Assembly: GCF_004117935.1 (NCBI RefSeq) | Contig: NZ_SDOY01000135.1 | Location: 1 to 64,000 of the forward strand | DNA length: 64,000 nucleotides | Direction: 5' to 3' | Origin: Streptomyces roseicoloratus | GTDB taxonomy: Bacteria > Actinomycetota > Actinomycetes > Streptomycetales > Streptomycetaceae | In this document: one piece after another, positions 27,425 through 37,004 of the stretch | How positions within the stretch are numbered: position 1 is the stretch's first letter | Layout of the letters: each line of letters begins with the position of its first letter | The notes under the pieces: generated by a model | What the model saw: only the letters and a program-made list of their open reading frames with translations | Databases searched by the model: none | What the model was told of the DNA's origin: nothing | Position numbers and translations under genes: made by a program

Positions 27425-28630
27425 TCAACCCTGGAAGCGGTACTCCTCGAGCAGCCGACGACCAATGATCATTTTCTGGATCTCGGCGGTACCTTCGCCG
27501 ATGAGCAGCATCGGCGCCTCGCGGTAGAGACGCTCGATCTCGTACTCCTTGGAGAAGCCGTATCCGCCGTGGATGCGGAAGGCGTCCTCGACGACCTCCT
27601 TGCAGTATTCGGACGCGAGGTACTTCGCCATCCCTGCTTCGAGGTCGTTTCGTTCCCCGGAGTCCTTTTTGCGTGCTGCGTTCACCATCATGGCATGAGC
27701 GGCCTCGACCTTGGTAGCCATCTCGGCCAGCTTGAACTGAATCGCCTGGTGCTGGGCGATCGGCTTTCCGAAAGTGTGACGCTGTTGGGCATACTGGACG
27801 CCCAGCTCGAAGGCACGCTGCGCGACGCCGCAACCACGGGCCGCCACGTTGACGCGGCCGACCTCCACGCCGTCCATCATTTGGTAAAACCCTCGGCCGG
27901 TGACCCCGCCGAGGACGCGATTGGCCGGAATGCGCAGTCCGTCCATGATGAGTTCGGTCGTGTCGACGCCCTTGTAACCCATCTTGTCGATCTTGCCGGG
28001 GATGGTGAGGCCGGGGCGGACCTCTCCGAAGCCGGGCTCCTTCTCGACGAGGAAGGTCGTCATCGACTTGTGCGGGGCGGTGCCCTCGGGGTGTCCTTCG
28101 TCACTTCGGACGAGAACGGCGACCAGCGTTGACGTGCCACCGTTCGTCAGCCACATCTTCTGGCCGTTCAGGACGTACTCGTCGCCGTCCTTCACCGCCT
28201 TCGACGTGATCGCCGACACATCCGAGCCGAGACCCGGCTCCGACATCGAGAAGGCACCGCGCACCTCGCCGGCCGCCATCCGCGGAAGGAAGTACTCCTT
28301 CTGCTCCTGGGTGCCGTGCTGCTTCAGCATGTACGCGACGATGAAGTGGGTGTTGATGATGCCGGACACCGACATCCAGCCGCGGGCGATCTCCTCCACG
28401 CACAGCGCGTAGGTGAGCAGGGACTCACCCAGGCCGCCGTACTCCTCGGGGATCATCAGACCGAAGACGCCGAGCTCCTTGAGCCCGTCGACGATCTGCT
28501 GGGGGTACTCGTCGCGGTGCTCGAGCTCCGTGGCGACCGGGATGATCTCCTTGTCCACGAAGTCGCGGACCGTGGAGAGGATCTCCTGCTGGACGTCGGT
28601 CAGACCGTGGGTCTGGGCGAGTCGCGCCAT
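27425..28630 (-). CDS. Acyl-CoA dehydrogenase, likely methylsuccinyl-CoA dehydrogenase
   Basis: The 401-residue flavoprotein shows the acyl-CoA dehydrogenase fold: AFSMSEPGLGSDVSAITSKA (FAD/substrate contact), KMWLTNGG, QRHTFGKPIAQHQAIQFKLA, and IHGGYGFSKEYEIERLYREA followed by LLIGEGTAEIQ, which carries the catalytic glutamate region. It is the last gene of the ccr-ecm-mcl-mch run, with only two bases separating it from mch. By position it should oxidise methylsuccinyl-CoA to mesaconyl-CoA. Alphaproteobacterial methylsuccinyl-CoA dehydrogenase is a larger protein, so the substrate assignment rests on operon context rather than on sequence length. Confidence 0.88.
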   Translation of the reverse strand: MARLAQTHGLTDVQQEILSTVRDFVDKEIIPVATELEHRDEYPQQIVDGLKELGVFGLMIPEEYGGLGESLLTYALCVEEIARGWMSVSGIINTHFIVAYMLKQHGTQEQKEYFLPRMAAGEVRGAFSMSEPGLGSDVSAITSKAVKDGDEYVLNGQKMWLTNGGTSTLVAVLVRSDEGHPEGTAPHKSMTTFLVEKEPGFGEVRPGLTIPGKIDKMGYKGVDTTELIMDGLRIPANRVLGGVTGRGFYQMMDGVEVGRVNVAARGCGVAQRAFELGVQYAQQRHTFGKPIAQHQAIQFKLAEMATKVEAAHAMMVNAARKKDSGERNDLEAGMAKYLASEYCKEVVEDAFRIHGGYGFSKEYEIERLYREAPMLLIGEGTAEIQKMIIGRRLLEEYRFQG

Positions 28631-28632
28631 GA

Positions 28633-29145
28633 CTACTTCCCCTGTTCCTTCAGCTCCGGCCGGCCGGGCTGTTCGCCGCCGCGCGCGTCGATGTACTCGG
28701 CGGTCGGGACCATGACCTTGCGGCGGAAGACGCACACCAGGGTGCCGTCCTGCTTGTAGCCCTTGGTCTCGACGTAGACGATGCCGCGGTCGCTCTTCGA
28801 CTTCGACGGCGTCTTGTCGAGGACGGTGGTCTCGCCGTAGATGGTGTCGCCGTGGAAGGTCGGCGCCACGTGCCGCAGCGACTCGATCTCCAGGTTGGCG
28901 ATGGCCTTGCCGGAGACGTCCGGCACGGACATGCCGAGCAGCAGCGAGTAGATGTAGTTGCCGACGACGACGTTCTTCTTGAAGTCCGTCGTGTTCTCCG
29001 CGTAATTCACGTCCATGTGAAGCGGGTGGTGGTTCATCGTCAGCAGACAGAAGAGGTGGTCGTCGTACTCGGTGACCGTCTTTCCGGGCCAGTGCTTGTA
29101 GACGGCGCCGATCTCGAACTCTTCGTAGGTGCGGCCGAACTGCAT
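28633..29145 (-). CDS. MaoC-family hydratase, likely mesaconyl-CoA hydratase
   Basis: The 170-residue protein is a single hot-dog MaoC-type domain (YEEFEIGAVYKHWPGKTVTE, MNHHPLHMDVNYAENTTDFK, VVVGNYIYSLLLGMSV). The N-terminal DD/H residues typical of (R)-hydratases lie in EYDDHLFCLLTMNHHPLH. In the ethylmalonyl-CoA pathway this step hydrates mesaconyl-CoA to beta-methylmalyl-CoA. Rhodobacter mesaconyl-CoA hydratase is about twice as long, so the actinobacterial version is a half-length variant, probably dimeric. It sits five bases from the lyase gene and two from the dehydrogenase gene. Confidence 0.85.
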   Translation of the reverse strand: MQFGRTYEEFEIGAVYKHWPGKTVTEYDDHLFCLLTMNHHPLHMDVNYAENTTDFKKNVVVGNYIYSLLLGMSVPDVSGKAIANLEIESLRHVAPTFHGDTIYGETTVLDKTPSKSKSDRGIVYVETKGYKQDGTLVCVFRRKVMVPTAEYIDARGGEQPGRPELKEQGK

Positions 29146-29150
29146 CGGAC

Positions 29151-30128
29151 TCAGGCCTCCGGGATCTCGAACTTGCTGGTGCGCTGCATGCCGGCGGCGC
29201 GGCCCTTGCCGGAGATGACCAGGGCCATCTTGCGGGAGGCCTCGTCGATCATCTCGTCGCCGAGCATCGCGGAGCCCTTCTTCCCGCCGGCCTCGGACGT
29301 GTAGTAGTCGTACGCGTCGAGGATCAGCTCGGCGTGGTCGAAGTCCTCCTGCGAGGGCGAGAAGATCTCGTTCGCCGCGGCGACCTGGTCCGGGTGCAGC
29401 ACCCACTTGCCGTCGAAGCCGAGGGCGGCGGCGCGCTGCGCGACGGCCTTGTAGCCCTCCGGGTTGCGGATCTGCAGGTAGGGGCCGTCGATCGCCTGGA
29501 GGTTGTTGGCGCGGGCGGCCATCAGGATGCTCATCAGGATGTGGTGGTACGCGTCCGCCGGGTAGCCGGGCGGCTGCTCGCCGACGACCAGCGACTTCAT
29601 GTTGATGGAGGCCATGAAGTCGGCCGGGCCGAAGATGATCGTCTCGACGCGCTGCGAGGCCTGGGCGATCGCGTTGACGTTGACGAGGCCCTGGGCGTTC
29701 TCGATCTGCGCCTCGATGCCGATCTTGCCGACCTCGAAGCCCATGGTCTTCTCGATCTGGGTCAGGAGCAGGTCGAGCGCGACGATCTGCTGGGCGTCCT
29801 GGACCTTCGGCAGCATGATGCAGTCGAGGTTCTGGCCGGCGCCCTCGACCACCGTGACGACGTCGCGGTAGGTCCAGTGGGTCGTCCAGTCGTTGACCCG
29901 CACGACCCGGGTCTTGCCGGTCCAGTCGCCCTCGTTGAGGAACTTCACGATGGTGTGCCGGGCCTCCGGCTTGGCCAGCGGCGCGCAGGCGTCCTCGAGG
30001 TCCAGGAAGACCTGGTCGGCCGCCAGGCCCTGGGCCTTCTCCAGGAACCGCGGGTTGGAGCCGGGCACCGCGAGGCACGAACGACGCGGGCGCAGGCGGT
30101 TCACGGGGGAAGCGGGCGTGCTGGTCAT
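29151..30128 (-). CDS. mcl: HpcH/HpaI-CitE family lyase, likely beta-methylmalyl-CoA/malyl-CoA lyase
   Basis: The 325-residue enzyme has a CitE-like TIM barrel: RRSCLAVPGSNPRFLEKAQG, the metal/CoA-site VFLDLEDACAPLAKPEAR, IENAQGLVNVNAIA, IIFGPADFMASINM and KWVLHPDQVAAANEIFSPS. It should split beta-methylmalyl-CoA into glyoxylate and propionyl-CoA, the carbon-releasing step of the ethylmalonyl-CoA pathway. The start overlaps the ecm stop in an ATGA arrangement (30125-30128), so the two are co-translated. The product glyoxylate also needs malyl-CoA handling, which the same enzyme can provide in some bacteria. Confidence 0.9.
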   Translation of the reverse strand: MTSTPASPVNRLRPRRSCLAVPGSNPRFLEKAQGLAADQVFLDLEDACAPLAKPEARHTIVKFLNEGDWTGKTRVVRVNDWTTHWTYRDVVTVVEGAGQNLDCIMLPKVQDAQQIVALDLLLTQIEKTMGFEVGKIGIEAQIENAQGLVNVNAIAQASQRVETIIFGPADFMASINMKSLVVGEQPPGYPADAYHHILMSILMAARANNLQAIDGPYLQIRNPEGYKAVAQRAAALGFDGKWVLHPDQVAAANEIFSPSQEDFDHAELILDAYDYYTSEAGGKKGSAMLGDEMIDEASRKMALVISGKGRAAGMQRTSKFEIPEA

Positions 30129-32161
30129 GCGGGGACCTCCGTACTTTCAAGGGGGCTGAGCTGGTTGGCTTTGCGGATCTCGTCGACGATACGGCCGATG
30201 ATCCCGGTGATGCCGAAGTCCTTCGGGGTGAAGACGGCGGCCACGCCCGCCGCCCTGAGCTCCTCGGCGTCCGCGTTCGGGATGATCCCGCCCACGACGA
30301 CCGGGATGTCCGCCGCGCCGGCCGTCCGCAGGCGGTCGAGGACGTCCGGTACGAGCTGGGCGTGCGAGCCGGAGAGGATCGACAGGCCGACCGCGTGCAC
30401 GTCCTCCTCCAGGGCCGCGTCCACGATCTGCTCCGGCGTCAGCCGGATGCCCTGGTAGACCACCTCGAACCCGGCGTCGCGGGCCCGCACGGCGATCTGC
30501 TCGGCGCCGTTGGAGTGGCCGTCCAGGCCCGGCTTGCCGACCAGGAAGCGCAGCTTGCCCACGCCCAGGTCCTGCGCGGTGCGGTCCACCTTGCGGCGGA
30601 CCTCGGCGAGCGGCGAGCCCGCCTCGGCCGGGACGGCCACCGGGGCGGAGGAGACACCGGTCGGGGCCCGGAACTCGCCGAAGACCTCGCGCAGCGCCCC
30701 GGCCCACTCGCCGGTGGTGACGCCGGCGCGGGCGCACTCGAGGGTGGCCTCCATGAGGTTGTCGGTGCCCTTGGCGGCCTCCTTCAGCCGCTCCAGGGCC
30801 TTGCAGGGCCGCGGATGGTTGAAGGGCGGCTGGTAACGGGTGTCGCGCCAGTTCTTCAGGGCGGACACGACACGGGCCTCGACCGCCGGGTCGACCGTCT
30901 GGATGGCGGTGTCCAGGTCGGCGGTGAGCGGGTTGGGCTCGGTCGTCTCGAAGATGTTGACGCCGACGATCTTCTCCTCGCCCGACTCGATCCGGGCGCG
31001 GCGCTCGGCGTGCGAGGAGACCAGCTGGGCCTTGAGGTAGCCGGACTCGACGGCGGCCATGGCGCCGCCCATCTCCTGGATCCGGTCGATCTCCGCCAGG
31101 CACTCGGTGACCAGGGAGTCCACCTTGGCCTCGATGACGTGCGAGCCGGCGAAGATGTCCTCGTACTCCAGGAGGTCGGACTCGTGCGCGAGCACCTGCT
31201 GGATGCGCAGCGACCACTGCTGGTCCCAGGGGCGCGGCAGGCCGAGCGCCTCGTTCCAGGCCGGCAGCTGGACGGCACGCGCGCGGGCGTCCTTCGACAG
31301 CGTGACGGCCAGCATCTCGAGGACGATCCGCTGGACGTTGTTCTCCGGCTGGGCCTCGGTCAGGCCGAGCGAGTTGACCTGGACGCCGTAGCGGAAGCGC
31401 CGCTGCTTGGCGTTCTCGATCCCGTACCGCTCGAGCGTGATCTTGTCCCAGATGCGGCCGAAGGCGCGCATCTTGCACATCTCCTCGACGAAGCGGACGC
31501 CCGCGTTCACGAAGAAGGAGATACGGGCGACGACCTCGCCGAAGCGCTCCTCGGGCACCTGACCCGAGTCGCGCACCGCGTCGAGCACCGCGATCGCGGT
31601 GGACATCGCGTACGAGATCTCCTGGACCGGAGTGGCGCCCGCCTCCTGCAGGTGGTAGCTGCAGATGTTGATCGGGTTCCACTTCGGGATGTGGTTGACC
31701 GTGTACGCGATCATGTCCGTCGTGAGGCGGAGCGAGGGGCCGGGCGGGAAGACGTGCGTCCCGCGCGACAGGTACTCCTTCACGATGTCGTTCTGGGTGG
31801 TGCCCTGGAGCCGGGTGATGTCCGCACCCTGCTCCTCGGCGACCACCTGGTAGAGCGCCAGCAGCCACATGGCGGTGGCGTTGATGGTCATCGAGGTGTT
31901 CATCTGCTCCAGGGGGATGTCCTGGAACAGCCGCCGCATGTCACCGACGTGCGAGACGGGAACCCCGACGCGGCCGACCTCGCCACGGGCGAGGATGTGG
32001 TCCGGGTCGTAGCCGGTCTGCGTGGGCAGGTCGAACGCGACCGAGAGGCCGGTCTGGCCCTTGGCGAGGTTACGCCGGTAGAGCTCGTTCGACGCCTCGG
32101 CGGTCGAGTGACCGGCGTAGGTCCGCATGAGCCACGGCCGATCCTTCTGACGCTCTGTCAT
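30125..32161 (-). CDS. ecm: Ethylmalonyl-CoA mutase (MeaA)
   Basis: The 678-residue protein is a coenzyme-B12-dependent acyl-CoA mutase that rearranges ethylmalonyl-CoA to methylsuccinyl-CoA. Residues 1-520 are the methylmalonyl-CoA-mutase-type barrel (MRTYAGHSTAEASNELYRRN, LSVAFDLPTQTGYDPDH, the radical-site region WKPINICSYHLQEAG-like WNPINICSYHLQEAGATPVQ). Residues 545-670 form the B12-binding domain with the cobalt-ligand motif LDGHSNG. The C-terminus (LSPLESTEVPA) is MeaA-like. It is downstream of ccr by 29 bases and translationally coupled to mcl. Confidence 0.95.
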   Translation of the reverse strand: MTERQKDRPWLMRTYAGHSTAEASNELYRRNLAKGQTGLSVAFDLPTQTGYDPDHILARGEVGRVGVPVSHVGDMRRLFQDIPLEQMNTSMTINATAMWLLALYQVVAEEQGADITRLQGTTQNDIVKEYLSRGTHVFPPGPSLRLTTDMIAYTVNHIPKWNPINICSYHLQEAGATPVQEISYAMSTAIAVLDAVRDSGQVPEERFGEVVARISFFVNAGVRFVEEMCKMRAFGRIWDKITLERYGIENAKQRRFRYGVQVNSLGLTEAQPENNVQRIVLEMLAVTLSKDARARAVQLPAWNEALGLPRPWDQQWSLRIQQVLAHESDLLEYEDIFAGSHVIEAKVDSLVTECLAEIDRIQEMGGAMAAVESGYLKAQLVSSHAERRARIESGEEKIVGVNIFETTEPNPLTADLDTAIQTVDPAVEARVVSALKNWRDTRYQPPFNHPRPCKALERLKEAAKGTDNLMEATLECARAGVTTGEWAGALREVFGEFRAPTGVSSAPVAVPAEAGSPLAEVRRKVDRTAQDLGVGKLRFLVGKPGLDGHSNGAEQIAVRARDAGFEVVYQGIRLTPEQIVDAALEEDVHAVGLSILSGSHAQLVPDVLDRLRTAGAADIPVVVGGIIPNADAEELRAAGVAAVFTPKDFGITGIIGRIVDEIRKANQLSPLESTEVPA

Positions 32162-32190: not shown

Positions 32191-33528
32191 TCAGATGTTG
32201 CGGAAGCGGTTGATGGCGTCGATGTGCCGGGCGCGCATCTCCGGGTTCCGCACGCCGAGGCCCTCCTGCGGGGCGAGCGCGAGCACGCCGACCTTGCCCT
32301 GGTGCAGGTTGCGGTGGACGTCGTAGGCGGCCTGGCCGGTCTCCTCCAGGGAGTAGACCTTGGACAGGGTGGGGTGGATCTTGCCCTTGGCGATCAGACG
32401 GTTGGCCTCCCACGCCTCGCGGTAGTTGGCGAAGTGCGAGCCGATGATGCGCTTCAGCGACATCCACAGGTAGCGGTTGTCGTACTGGTGCATGTAGCCC
32501 GAGGTCGAGGCGCAGGTGGTGATGGTGCCGCCCTTGCGGGTGACGTAGACCGAGGCGCCGAAGGTCTCGCGCCCGGGGTGCTCGAAGACGATGTCGATGT
32601 CCTCGCCGCCGGTGAGCTCGCGGATCTTGGAGCCGAAGCGCTTCCACTCCCGCGGGTCCTGGGTGTTCTCGTCCTTCCAGAACTTGTAGCCCTCGGCGTT
32701 GCGGTCGATGACCGCCTCGGCGCCCATGGACCGGCAGATGTCGGCCTTCTCGGGGGAGGAGACGACACAGATCGGGTTGGCGCCGCCGGCCAGCGCGAAC
32801 TGGGTGGCGTACGAGCCGAGGCCGCCGCTCGCGCCCCAGATCAGGACGTTGTCGCCCTGCTTCATCCCGGCGCCGTTGCGGGAGACCAGCTGGCGGTACG
32901 CGGTGGAGTTCACCAGGCCGGGGGCCGCGGCCTCCTCCCAGCTCAGGTGGTCCGGCTTGGGCATCAGCTGGTTGGACTTGACCAGGGCGATCTCGGCCAG
33001 GCCGCCGAAGTTGGTCTCGAAGCCCCAGATGCGCTGCTCGGGGTCGAGCATCGTGTCGTTGTGGCCGTCCGAGGACTCCAGCTCCACGCTCAGGCAGTGC
33101 GCGACGACCTCGTCGCCGGGCTGCCAGGCGTTGACGCCCGGGCCGGTGCGCAGGACGACGCCCGCGAGGTCGGAGCCGATGATGTGGTAGGGCAGGTCGT
33201 GGCGCTTGGTGAGCTCCGAGAGGCGGCCGTAGCGCTCCAGGAAGCCGAAGGTCGACACCGGCTCGAAGATCGAGGTCCACACCGAGTTGTAGTTCACGGA
33301 GCTGGCCATGACGGCGACGAGGGCCTCGCCCGGGCCGAGCTCGGGCAGCGGGACCTCGTCCAGGTGGAGCGACTTGCGCGGGTCCTTGTCGCGGCTGGCC
33401 ACCCCGGTGAACATCTCCGCCTCGTCCTTGTGGACGGTCACGGCGCGGTACGACTCGGGGAGCTTGAGGTTGGCGAAGTCGGCCGAGGTGGAGTCGGGCG
33501 ACTGGATCGCGTCCAGGATGTCCTTCAC
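32191..33528 (-). CDS. ccr: Crotonyl-CoA carboxylase/reductase
   Basis: The 445-residue NADPH-dependent enzyme reduces and carboxylates crotonyl-CoA to (2S)-ethylmalonyl-CoA, the entry step of the pathway and a source of polyketide extender units. It is a medium-chain dehydrogenase: VMASSVNYNSVWTSIFEPVS, the Rossmann-fold IWGASGGLGSYATQFALAGG and IDIVFEHPGRETFGASVYVT. The true start is a GTG at 33528, with GGAGG seven bases before it; the open frame upstream is untranslated leader. It heads the run ccr-ecm-mcl-mch-mcd. A promoter with two flanking palindromes lies about 230 bases upstream (33755-33796). Confidence 0.95.
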   Translation of the reverse strand: MKDILDAIQSPDSTSADFANLKLPESYRAVTVHKDEAEMFTGVASRDKDPRKSLHLDEVPLPELGPGEALVAVMASSVNYNSVWTSIFEPVSTFGFLERYGRLSELTKRHDLPYHIIGSDLAGVVLRTGPGVNAWQPGDEVVAHCLSVELESSDGHNDTMLDPEQRIWGFETNFGGLAEIALVKSNQLMPKPDHLSWEEAAAPGLVNSTAYRQLVSRNGAGMKQGDNVLIWGASGGLGSYATQFALAGGANPICVVSSPEKADICRSMGAEAVIDRNAEGYKFWKDENTQDPREWKRFGSKIRELTGGEDIDIVFEHPGRETFGASVYVTRKGGTITTCASTSGYMHQYDNRYLWMSLKRIIGSHFANYREAWEANRLIAKGKIHPTLSKVYSLEETGQAAYDVHRNLHQGKVGVLALAPQEGLGVRNPEMRARHIDAINRFRNI

Positions 33529-33754
33529 GGGATGCCTCCGGCGGTGCGGCGTCCGGGGGGACGCGCTGAGGGTTACGTCGGGGTGTGGTGCTGTGGAGGT
33601 GTGCCGTCGGTTCGGCGCGGTGGTGCTGTGGCGGCGCCGTGGTGGGGCGCAGGAGGTGCCTGTGACGCAGGCGTCCGGGCGCACGAGCAGGATCGCTTGT
33701 GGGGACAGCCGGCGCACGAGGTGATCTCTGCGCGCCGGCCGCCCGGACAGCATC

Positions 33755-33796
33755 AACGTATGGCACGCCGTGTCACCTGACAAGGCACTGCGTGCC
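33755..33796 (-). promoter_or_regulatory. ccr promoter with two palindromic operators
   Basis: On the minus strand TTGTCA (33778-33783) and TACGTT (33755-33760) are separated by 17 bases, a close match to the vegetative promoter consensus. GGCAC-TGC-GTGCC (33784-33796) lies just upstream of the -35, and GGCAC-GCC-GTGTC (33762-33774) fills the -10/-35 spacer. The centres are exactly 22 bp apart, about two helical turns, so two dimers would bind on one face and block polymerase. The leader to the ccr start is about 220 bases. Confidence 0.65.
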
Positions 33797-33887
33797 AACA
33801 ATTTCACTCAGATGCCATCTGCCGGTCACGGATGAGCGATGATCGATCGAAAATGCCCCTGAACTGGGCGTATACGCCGCCGGACGC

Positions 33888-33947: not shown

Positions 33948-34799
33948 TCAGCCCTTCTTCAACGCCTCCTGGATGGTCCGCATCACCTCGTCGAGCGATG
34001 CGTCCGTTCGGGCGACGGCGACCACCACGTCACCCGTCGTGGAGGCGGTGGCGGCGGGGCCGGACGGGACGGCCGGAGCCGGGGCGGCCGGCTCGGAGGC
34101 GGCCGGACCGCCGGGCGCCGCCGGCCGGGCGCCTATGCCCGAGCCGAAGGTCTCCCGCACGATCGCGAAGGCGTGGTCCAGCTGCGCCTCCACGTCGCCC
34201 TGGCCGCCCGCACGCAGCCAGCGCCGCAGCACGTGGTTGTGCGCGGTGACCACCGCGGAGGCGGCCACCTCCGCGAGCAGCGGGTCGTCGTTGCCGTCGT
34301 GGTGGTCGCGCTCGTCGAAGTGACCGAGGAGATAGCGGGTGAACAGGCGCTCGTAGCGGGCCACCGAGGCGATCTCGCGCTCCCGCAGCGTCGGGACCTC
34401 GCGGGTGAGCCGGTACCGGGCCACGGAGACCGCGGGCGAGCCCGCGTACATCTTCATGACCTCCTTGATGCCCCGGCACACCGTGTCGAGCGGGTGCTCG
34501 TGCGGCGAGGCCGCGTTCAGCACCGCCTCGGCGCGCACCAGGGTGTCGTCGTGGTCCGGGAAGATCGCCTCTTCCTTGGAGCGGAAGTGCCGGAAGAAGG
34601 TCCGCCGGGCCACCCCGGCCGCCGCCGCGATCTCGTCGACGGTCGTGGCCTCGTAGCCCTTGGTGGCGAACAGCTCCATCGCCGCGGCGGCCAGCTCCCG
34701 GCGCATCTTCAGCCGCTGCGCGGCGGCGCGGGTCCCCGCCGAGCTCTCCGGGGAGTCGGGCGTGGACGTGGCACGGGGTGTCTTCGCGGCCTTGGACAT
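33948..34799 (-). CDS. TetR-family transcriptional regulator
   Basis: The 283-residue protein has an N-terminal TetR HTH (AAAAMELFATKGYEATTVDE, IAAAAGVARRTFFRHFRSKE) at about residues 33-78. A helical ligand-binding domain follows, and then an unusual 60-residue tail rich in Ala, Pro and Gly that ends in a short predicted helix (SLDEVMRTIQEALKKG). The start is the ATG at 34799, six bases after TACGTT, suggesting a leaderless transcript; an upstream ATG at 34816 has no better support. It sits between the ccr operon and the 3-hydroxyacyl-CoA dehydrogenase gene and is the obvious candidate regulator of the twin operators at the ccr promoter. Confidence 0.85.
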   Translation of the reverse strand: MSKAAKTPRATSTPDSPESSAGTRAAAQRLKMRRELAAAAMELFATKGYEATTVDEIAAAAGVARRTFFRHFRSKEEAIFPDHDDTLVRAEAVLNAASPHEHPLDTVCRGIKEVMKMYAGSPAVSVARYRLTREVPTLREREIASVARYERLFTRYLLGHFDERDHHDGNDDPLLAEVAASAVVTAHNHVLRRWLRAGGQGDVEAQLDHAFAIVRETFGSGIGARPAAPGGPAASEPAAPAPAVPSGPAATASTTGDVVVAVARTDASLDEVMRTIQEALKKG

Positions 34800-34923: not shown

Positions 34924-36705
34924 TCAGCGGCGGGCATATTCGCGGAAGCCGCGCCCCGTCTTCCGGCCCAGGCAGCCCGCGGCCACCAGGTGCTCGAGCA
35001 GCGGAGCCGGGGCCAGACCCGGGTCGCGGAACTCGCGGTGCAGCACCTTCTCGATGGCGAGCGAGACGTCCAGGCCGACCACGTCCAGCAGTTCGAACGG
35101 ACCCATCGGGTAGCCGCCGCCCAGCTTCATCGCGGTGTCGATGTCGTCCAGGGTCGCGTAGTGCTCCTGGACCATCTTGACCGCGTTGTTCAGGTACGGG
35201 AACAGCAGCGCGTTGACGATGAACCCGGCCCGGTCGCCGCAGTCCACGCCGTGCTTCCTGATCTTCGCCGTGACCTCGCGGACGGTCGCGTGGACGTCGT
35301 CCGAGGTCAGGACGGTGCGGACGATCTCCACCAGCTTCATGGCCGGCGCCGGGTTGAAGAAGTGCATCCCGATGACGTCCTGCGGGCGCGAGGTGGCCCG
35401 GGCGCAGGCGACGACGGGCAGCGAGGAGGTGGTGGTGGCGAGCACTGCGCCCGGCTTGCAGATCTTGTCCAGGCGGGCGAACAGGTCCTGCTTGATCTCC
35501 AGGTCCTCGGCGACCGCCTCGACCGCCAGGTCGACCTGGGCGAAGGCGTCGAGCGAGCCCGCCGGGAGGATCCGGGCCAGCGTCTCGTCGCGGGCCTCGC
35601 CGGTCATCCGGCCCTTGTCGACGGAGCGCGCCAGGGACTTGGCGATCCGCGCCTTGGCGGTGTCGGCCTTCTCCTGGGAGCGGGCCGCGAGGACGACCTC
35701 GTAACCGGCCTTCGCGAAGACCTCGGCGATGCCGGAGGCCATGGTGCCCGAGCCGGCCACGCCGACCGAACGGACCTCACGGCCGCCGCCGGCGGCGGAC
35801 GAGTCCGCTGGGGTGAGCGCGTCGGGAACCACGGTGGCCGAGCCGGGGCCCTCGTAGGTGTAGAAGCCGCGGCCGGACTTCCGGCCCGTCAGGCCCGCCT
35901 CGCTGAGCTGCTTGAGGATCGGGGCCGGAGCGTGCAGCCGGTCCCGCGAGGAGGCGTACATCGCCTCCAGGACGGTACGGGCGGTGTCGATGCCGATCAG
36001 GTCGAGCAGCGCCAGCGGGCCCATCGGCAGGCCGCAGCCGAGCCGCATGGCCGCGTCGATGTCCTCACGGGAGGCGTACCTGGCCTCGTACATGGCGGCG
36101 GCCTGGTTGAGGTAGCCGAAGAGCAGCCCGTCGGCGACGAATCCGGGCCGGTCGCCGACCGCGACGGGCTCCTTGCCGAGTTCCTGCGCGAGCCGGGTGA
36201 CGGCGTCGACGGCCCGCGGGTCGGTCAGCACCGAGGAGACCACCTCGACCAGCTTCATCGCCTGGACCGGGGTGAAGAAGTGCAGTCCGAGGACCCGCTC
36301 CGGGTGCGCGGAGTCGGCGGCGAGCCGGGTCACCGAGAGCGCGTTGGTGCCGGTGGCGATGATCGCGTCGGGCCGGACGATGCCGTCCAGGGCCCGGAAG
36401 ACCTCCTGCTTGGTCTCGTACGCCTCGGGCACGACCTCGATCACGAGGTCGGCGTCGGCGGCGGCCTGGAGCTCGGAGTAGGTGCGGAACCGGGCGAGGA
36501 CGTCCTGCCGCTCCTCCTCCGTGATCCGCTCACGGGCCACCGCACGGGCGGTGGAGGCCTCCAGGGCGGCGACGGCCTTGGCGGCCGCGGTCTCGTCGAT
36601 GTCGATGCCGACGACCTCACGGCCGGCCCGTGCCAGGACATCGGCGATGCCCGTGCCCATGGTGCCGAGACCGACGACGGCGATGGTGGAGAGAGGGGTG
36701 TCCAT
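34924..36705 (-). CDS. Tandem-duplicated 3-hydroxyacyl-CoA dehydrogenase
   Basis: The 593-residue protein consists of two complete 3-hydroxyacyl-CoA dehydrogenase halves. Half one is residues 1-290 (STIAVVGLGTMGTGIADVLA, GLHFFTPVQAMKLVEVV, GRKSGRGFYTY). Half two is about residues 297-593 (VRSVGVAGSGTMASGIAEVF, IGMHFFNPAPAMKLVEIV, GRKTGRGFREY). Each has its own NAD-binding domain and substrate-binding helical domain with the His-Phe-Phe catalytic region. It likely interconverts acetoacetyl-CoA and 3-hydroxybutyryl-CoA, supplying crotonyl-CoA for Ccr. AGGAG precedes the ATG at 36705 at the expected spacing. The gene is alone, between TetR and the divergent HEAT gene. Confidence 0.9.
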   Translation of the reverse strand: MDTPLSTIAVVGLGTMGTGIADVLARAGREVVGIDIDETAAAKAVAALEASTARAVARERITEEERQDVLARFRTYSELQAAADADLVIEVVPEAYETKQEVFRALDGIVRPDAIIATGTNALSVTRLAADSAHPERVLGLHFFTPVQAMKLVEVVSSVLTDPRAVDAVTRLAQELGKEPVAVGDRPGFVADGLLFGYLNQAAAMYEARYASREDIDAAMRLGCGLPMGPLALLDLIGIDTARTVLEAMYASSRDRLHAPAPILKQLSEAGLTGRKSGRGFYTYEGPGSATVVPDALTPADSSAAGGGREVRSVGVAGSGTMASGIAEVFAKAGYEVVLAARSQEKADTAKARIAKSLARSVDKGRMTGEARDETLARILPAGSLDAFAQVDLAVEAVAEDLEIKQDLFARLDKICKPGAVLATTTSSLPVVACARATSRPQDVIGMHFFNPAPAMKLVEIVRTVLTSDDVHATVREVTAKIRKHGVDCGDRAGFIVNALLFPYLNNAVKMVQEHYATLDDIDTAMKLGGGYPMGPFELLDVVGLDVSLAIEKVLHREFRDPGLAPAPLLEHLVAAGCLGRKTGRGFREYARR

Positions 36706-37004
36706 CAGGGGACTCCTGGGAGGAAGAGTGACGACTGAAGGCAGCGCGCGGGAAAGGGAAAGGCGCGATGGGGCCCGGGGGCGATGGGAGCCCGCAGGGC
36801 ACGGGAAATGAGGAGACGGACCCTGTCCCGGAGTCACGTCGGAAACTGCCGAACCGAACAGACACTCACGGCGGCTGCGTCACCAGGCCGTCGTGAGGAG
36901 TGCGGGGGGTGACCCGCTCACCTGAGATTAACCGCCCGGTAACGAGCACGCCAGTCCTGGGAAGTTGGGAAAGTGTGATCTGGATCGCGGATAGCCTCGG
37001 ATTC

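Follow-up and report, generated by a model that had tools for sequence, protein, structure and literature searches.

Paired MftR-like operators around the predicted ccr promoter of Streptomyces suggest repression of the ethylmalonyl-CoA operon by a TetR-family protein

MftR of Mycobacterium smegmatis represses the mycofactocin genes and responds to long-chain acyl-CoAs as ligands (PMC8728441). Its operator, Omft, has been footprinted in M. smegmatis (TGGCACTCGATGCCATATAT / TCCATTCTGGCACTCGATGCCATATAT), and the operator consensus is T-N2-GGCA-N5-TGCC-N2-A (PMC8728441). Control of ccr, the crotonyl-CoA carboxylase/reductase gene of the ethylmalonyl-CoA pathway, by a TetR-family protein has been described in Methylobacterium extorquens where CcrR is reported to be an activator with a site at -334 to -321 (PMC6534649) and Ccr activity is halved in the CcrR mutant (PMC4207312). 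A further parallel is provided by RamB of Paracoccus denitrificans, which resembles the system considered here in controlling acetate assimilation under the influence of pathway CoA esters and in having a two-box operator, but which belongs to the ScfR family, controls the glyoxylate cycle and has boxes 18 bp apart (PMC10370305). None of the components is new in itself: this family of regulators, this type of operator and the notion that a TetR protein controls ccr have all been described before. In the openly accessible literature, outside which most subscription journals lie, we found neither a described regulator of the ethylmalonyl-CoA operon in Streptomyces nor an account of an MftR-like regulator with tandem phased operators at that operon.

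The window analysed here is a stretch of 64,000 nucleotides from Streptomyces roseicoloratus. Genes for Ccr, a mutase, a CoA lyase, a hydratase and an acyl-CoA dehydrogenase follow one another in the order of an ethylmalonyl-CoA pathway operon (Table 1). The gene for a TetR-family regulator, TetR1, is encoded beside ccr, and a FadB-like gene lies upstream of tetR1.

Table 1. Genes and promoter elements of the ccr region, with positions in the window
Feature	Position	Strand	Basis
Acyl-CoA dehydrogenase; methylsuccinyl-CoA dehydrogenase by position	27425-28630, start approximate	(-)	PF00441/PF02771, operon order
MaoC-like hydratase; mesaconyl-CoA hydratase by position	28633-29145, start approximate	(-)	ORF, conserved operon order; function assigned from synteny
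mcl-like CoA lyase (HpcH/HpaI family)	29151-30128	(-)	PF03328
meaA-like ethylmalonyl-CoA mutase	30125-32161	(-)	PF01642, PF02310
ccr, crotonyl-CoA carboxylase/reductase	32191-33528	(-)	TIGR01751, 631.8 bits
Predicted transcript start (~33748) and conserved first leader bases GTCCGGGCGGCCGGCG	33733-33748	(-)	Spacing; aligned promoters
-10 element TACGTT	33755-33760	(-)	Read from sequence and promoter alignment
O2, proximal operator GACACGGCGTGCC = GACAC-GGC-GTGCC	33762-33774	(-)	One mismatch to GGCAC-N3-GTGCC
-35 element TTGTCA	33778-33783	(-)	Read from sequence and promoter alignment
O1, distal operator GGCACGCAGTGCC = GGCAC-GCA-GTGCC	33784-33796	(-)	Perfect palindrome
Inverted half-sites CTCANNYG-N14-CRNNTGAG	33807-33836	(-)	Less redundant promoters; candidate activator site
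tetR1, MftR-like TetR-family regulator	33948-34799, start approximate, ORF open to 34937	(-)	TetR_N PF00440
FadB-like double 3-hydroxyacyl-CoA dehydrogenase	34924-36837	(-)	NCBIfam 3-hydroxybutyryl-CoA dehydrogenase models

The original prediction placed a TTGTCA-N17-TACGTT promoter in front of ccr, with one palindrome just upstream of the -35 element, a second between -35 and -10, and 22 bp between their centres. All of these elements were found on the minus strand as described. O1 abuts the -35 element on its upstream side, reading towards ccr, and O2 occupies the 17-bp spacer, the length of which is normal. Judged from the spacing, the leader between the predicted start and ccr would be about 220 bases long, and its opening is conserved across the aligned Streptomyces promoters. 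A generic sigma-70 scan returned no promoter because the conserved promoter bases are limited to TTG and TANNNT. These same bases support the call as a predicted promoter, since among 104 less redundant promoters the -10 element is TANNNT in nearly all (TACGTT, TACCGT, TACCTT, TAGCGT and TAACGT are seen), and the TTG, alone of the -35 element, is invariant in Streptomyces. Other genera of the Streptomycetaceae have the same tandem with TTTAC replacing TTG.

A single palindrome carries no weight by itself. Although 15 copies with at most one mismatch are present in the window against 7.8 expected, the whole genome contains 117 exact matches to GGCACNNNGTGYC and 126 to the reversed control, and the single site was rejected as a signal for want of enrichment. 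The pair is far above chance. At a tolerance of up to three mismatches, the window should contain 0.11 such pairs; it contains one, which has no mismatch. We extended the pattern to GRCAC-N3-GTGYC-TTG-N6-GDCAC-N3-GTGYC-ATA and took its reversal as the control. Of 393 Streptomyces genomes, 370 gave exactly one match, and the control gave none, so that the expectation that both palindromes would be conserved across the genus is borne out.

Several of the 23 exceptions are explicable by loss of ccr, by contig ends or by changes in the flanks. The ccr gene has been lost from G037, G113, G135, G731 and G010; the contigs of G008 and G050 stop immediately short of ccr; and in G140 and G018 the sequence beside the arms contains a single-base difference or a single-base insertion. 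One assembly (G112, locus L153, sites near 341 and 383) has a wider interval between the operators, 42 bp (about four helical turns) rather than 22, and TetR1 was not detected in it.

Alignment of 174 Streptomyces promoters, many of them from close relatives, reveals which bases are held. The operator arms reach about 2.0 bits except at tolerated G/A/T and C/T positions, whereas values of about 0.4-1.3 bits are usual for the N3 centres, for the six bases lying between the two operators and for the final three of the -35 element. Because the N3 centres drift, the conservation of the arms cannot be put down to overall sequence similarity, and the pattern is the one expected of a promoter enclosed by two protein sites. 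Inverted repeats located downstream of tetR1 might instead be RNA hairpins or the terminator of that gene. We regard this as very improbable, since the palindromes lie upstream of the predicted transcript start and overlap promoter elements, arms and spacing are constant while the centres vary, and the tandem remains at ccr where inserted genes have put tetR1 1 to 20 kb away. This last behaviour marks the tandem as an element of the ccr promoter and not the tail of tetR1. A scan for T-run terminators found none, and Rfam gave no match near a gathering score. For the latter reason we also rejected a riboswitch or similar RNA element in the ccr leader.

The amino acid sequence of TetR1 places it in the TetR family (TetR_N PF00440, 63.4 bits against a cut-off of 24). 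Its best NCBIfam match is TIGR03968, MftR, at 90.8 bits, which is below the equivalog cut-off of 224.9, so that TetR1 is MftR-like and not a member of the equivalog. A profile of TetR1 and its relatives matches the MftR structure 8x0a with an E value of 9e-23, and the recognition regions are near-identical, with GVARRTFFRHF in TetR1 and GIARRTLFRYY in MftR, as befits a regulator of the MftR-like operator class. The operators agree with this: both O1 and O2 match the core GGCA-N5-TGCC, apart from a single substitution in O2. Together with its right flank, O2 reads TGACACGGCGTGCCATACGTT and runs on into ATA as Omft does. Similarity to MftR extends over the operator core TGGCAC-N3-RTGCCATA, the TetR fold and the placing of the regulator gene beside its target operon, and Omft, like O2, lies one base upstream of the likely -10 element, the position of that element at Omft being deduced. 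The two systems differ in that the mycofactocin promoter has a single operator whereas the ccr promoter has two. They differ also in that TetR1, scoring under the equivalog cut-off, is a candidate regulator of a carbon-assimilation operon. Its gene is not encoded with mycofactocin biosynthesis genes but has ethylmalonyl-CoA pathway genes as neighbours, and its ligand may be a shorter acyl-CoA.

The tandem and TetR1 travel together. TetR1 orthologues were found in 146 of 150 Streptomyces, and in a sample of 30 Streptomycetaceae from other genera, which are kin genomes and hence not 30 independent events, TetR1 occurs with a nearby tandem in 27 and neither occurs in 3. For 20 ccr genes of other actinobacterial families, the sequence adjoining the gene on its upstream side gave neither an operator nor a TetR-type match. 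The earlier proposal that the TetR protein encoded beside ccr is the natural candidate regulator is supported by this co-occurrence and by the match between an MftR-like protein and an MftR-like operator. TetR1 may have another role besides ccr, as it persists in five Streptomyces that lack both ccr and the tandem. Autoregulation was considered and rejected. No conserved operator lies upstream of tetR1, and the GACAC-N3-GTGCC sites near its start are limited to close relatives; the site at 34770-34782 occurs only in these, and that at 34475-34487 falls in a conserved coding stretch.

Three of the genomes without ccr (G135, G113 and G037; loci L109, L110 and L112) retain TetR1 and the CoA lyase gene, although ccr is lost genome-wide, the locus lacks meaA, maoC and mcd, and the operator is absent nearby. 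Another genome (G010; L113, 1900-3200) has a decaying locus in which ccr is gone, although its start codon and promoter are retained, and meaA is reduced to a remnant; here O2 survives and O1 is degraded.

The operator core by itself does not identify the protein that binds it, because a perfect tandem of GGCACNNNGTGCC, present twice and 22 bp apart, also stands upstream of aceE (pyruvate dehydrogenase E1; L159, G000:C14, 1999-2033), where the adjoining gene encodes a GntR-type regulator. The factor reading this tandem might therefore also occupy the palindromes at ccr, as might TetR2, an MftR-like paralogue about 50% identical to TetR1 (L099, G000:C162, 3033-4503). The gene next to that for TetR2 encodes a ChsH2-like zinc-ribbon protein, and its promoter contains the same operator (TGGCACTCAGTGCCATA / GGCACTCAGTGCCATATCTT), frequently accompanied by another site 22-23 bp upstream. 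We nevertheless consider it unlikely that a protein other than TetR1 is responsible at ccr. Many Streptomyces with the ccr tandem have a single TetR1/TetR2-like match (G006, G012 and G027, for example), and TetR2 is therefore not needed for the ccr sites. As for the aceE factor, Kitasatospora-type genomes have no aceE-type tandem but do contain TetR1 and the tandem at ccr, and the sites at aceE differ in their flanks and are not adjoined by a -10 element.

The aceE tandem recurs in many Streptomyces with differing flanks. Its membership of a ccr regulon was rejected, since its own flanks, its GntR-type neighbour and the fact that Kitasatospora-type genomes lack it all point to a distinct system. 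A further candidate operator, TGGCACGTTTTGCCATA, is present on the same contig at C14:8673.

Overall, we favour the interpretation that TetR1 is a repressor that clamps the ccr promoter through two operators, silences the ethylmalonyl-CoA operon and is probably released by an acyl-CoA, and we put the probability of this at about 0.8. Two TetR1 dimers, separated by two turns and sharing one face of the helix, would bind O1 and O2, the first lying against the -35 element and the second filling the spacer. With O2 occupying a spacer whose length is ordinary and O1 directly adjoining the -35 element, RNA polymerase would be excluded and the operon (ccr-meaA-mcl-maoC-mcd) would remain silent. A pathway-linked acyl-CoA thioester would probably release TetR1 and allow carbon from acetyl-CoA to enter. 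We infer the binding of TetR1 to O1 and O2, the repressive sign and the acyl-CoA nature of the ligand; ligand control of the operon, in particular, is suggested by analogy with MftR. In S. tsukubaensis, expression of the native ccr1 gene was below quantification in glucose/dextrin medium (PMC4606968), a result consistent with a closed native promoter.

TetR1 might bind the same two operators and yet activate ccr, as CcrR does. CcrR resembles TetR1 in being a TetR-family regulator of the ccr gene of the ethylmalonyl-CoA pathway and it is reported to be an activator, the mutant of which has half the Ccr activity (PMC6534649; PMC4207312). The likeness noted here is one of family and target, and the CcrR site is reported to lie far upstream. 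Activation by TetR1 seems to us improbable. O2 in the 17-bp spacer and O1 touching the -35 element are in blocking positions, and MftR, the relative that has been characterised, acts as a repressor. Moreover, the position usual for an activator is taken by a different conserved element.

This element consists of the inverted half-sites CTCANNYG and CRNNTGAG upstream of O1, which are centred 22 bp apart at about -84 and -62 with respect to the predicted start. The region from -84 to -62 before a start is the usual place for an activator. Both half-sites are present in 86 of the 104 less redundant promoters; 82 of these show a distance of 26 bp and the remaining 4 one of 27 bp. There is one copy per fetched locus, and the element is largely missing from the Kitasatospora-type relatives. 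It is probably an activator site. The half-site centres extend the two-turn rhythm of O1 and O2, and we tentatively suggest, as a possibility somewhat short of an even chance, that the ccr promoter is a four-site array with steps of about two turns, in which TetR1 as a repressor at O1 and O2 would be combined with an upstream activator so that the promoter would open only in response to an acyl-CoA and a second nutritional signal together. GlnR immunoprecipitates from S. venezuelae included the ccr promoter, in which no GlnR box was recognisable (PMC3087709).

Repression by TetR1 through O1 and O2 is, with a precise operator pair and a named candidate protein, a testable switch. For metabolic engineers, it would supply a defined target for increasing the supply of extender units, and a single operator code would link the MftR-like TetR branches of mycobacteria and Streptomyces. 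In another actinobacterial genus, related to the window genome at the level of class, genes for MftR-like TetR proteins are followed by two GRCAC-N3-GTGCC sites some 65 bp apart (L084, 2168-2245; L085, 2185-2262), which suggests that the operator code may be widely shared.
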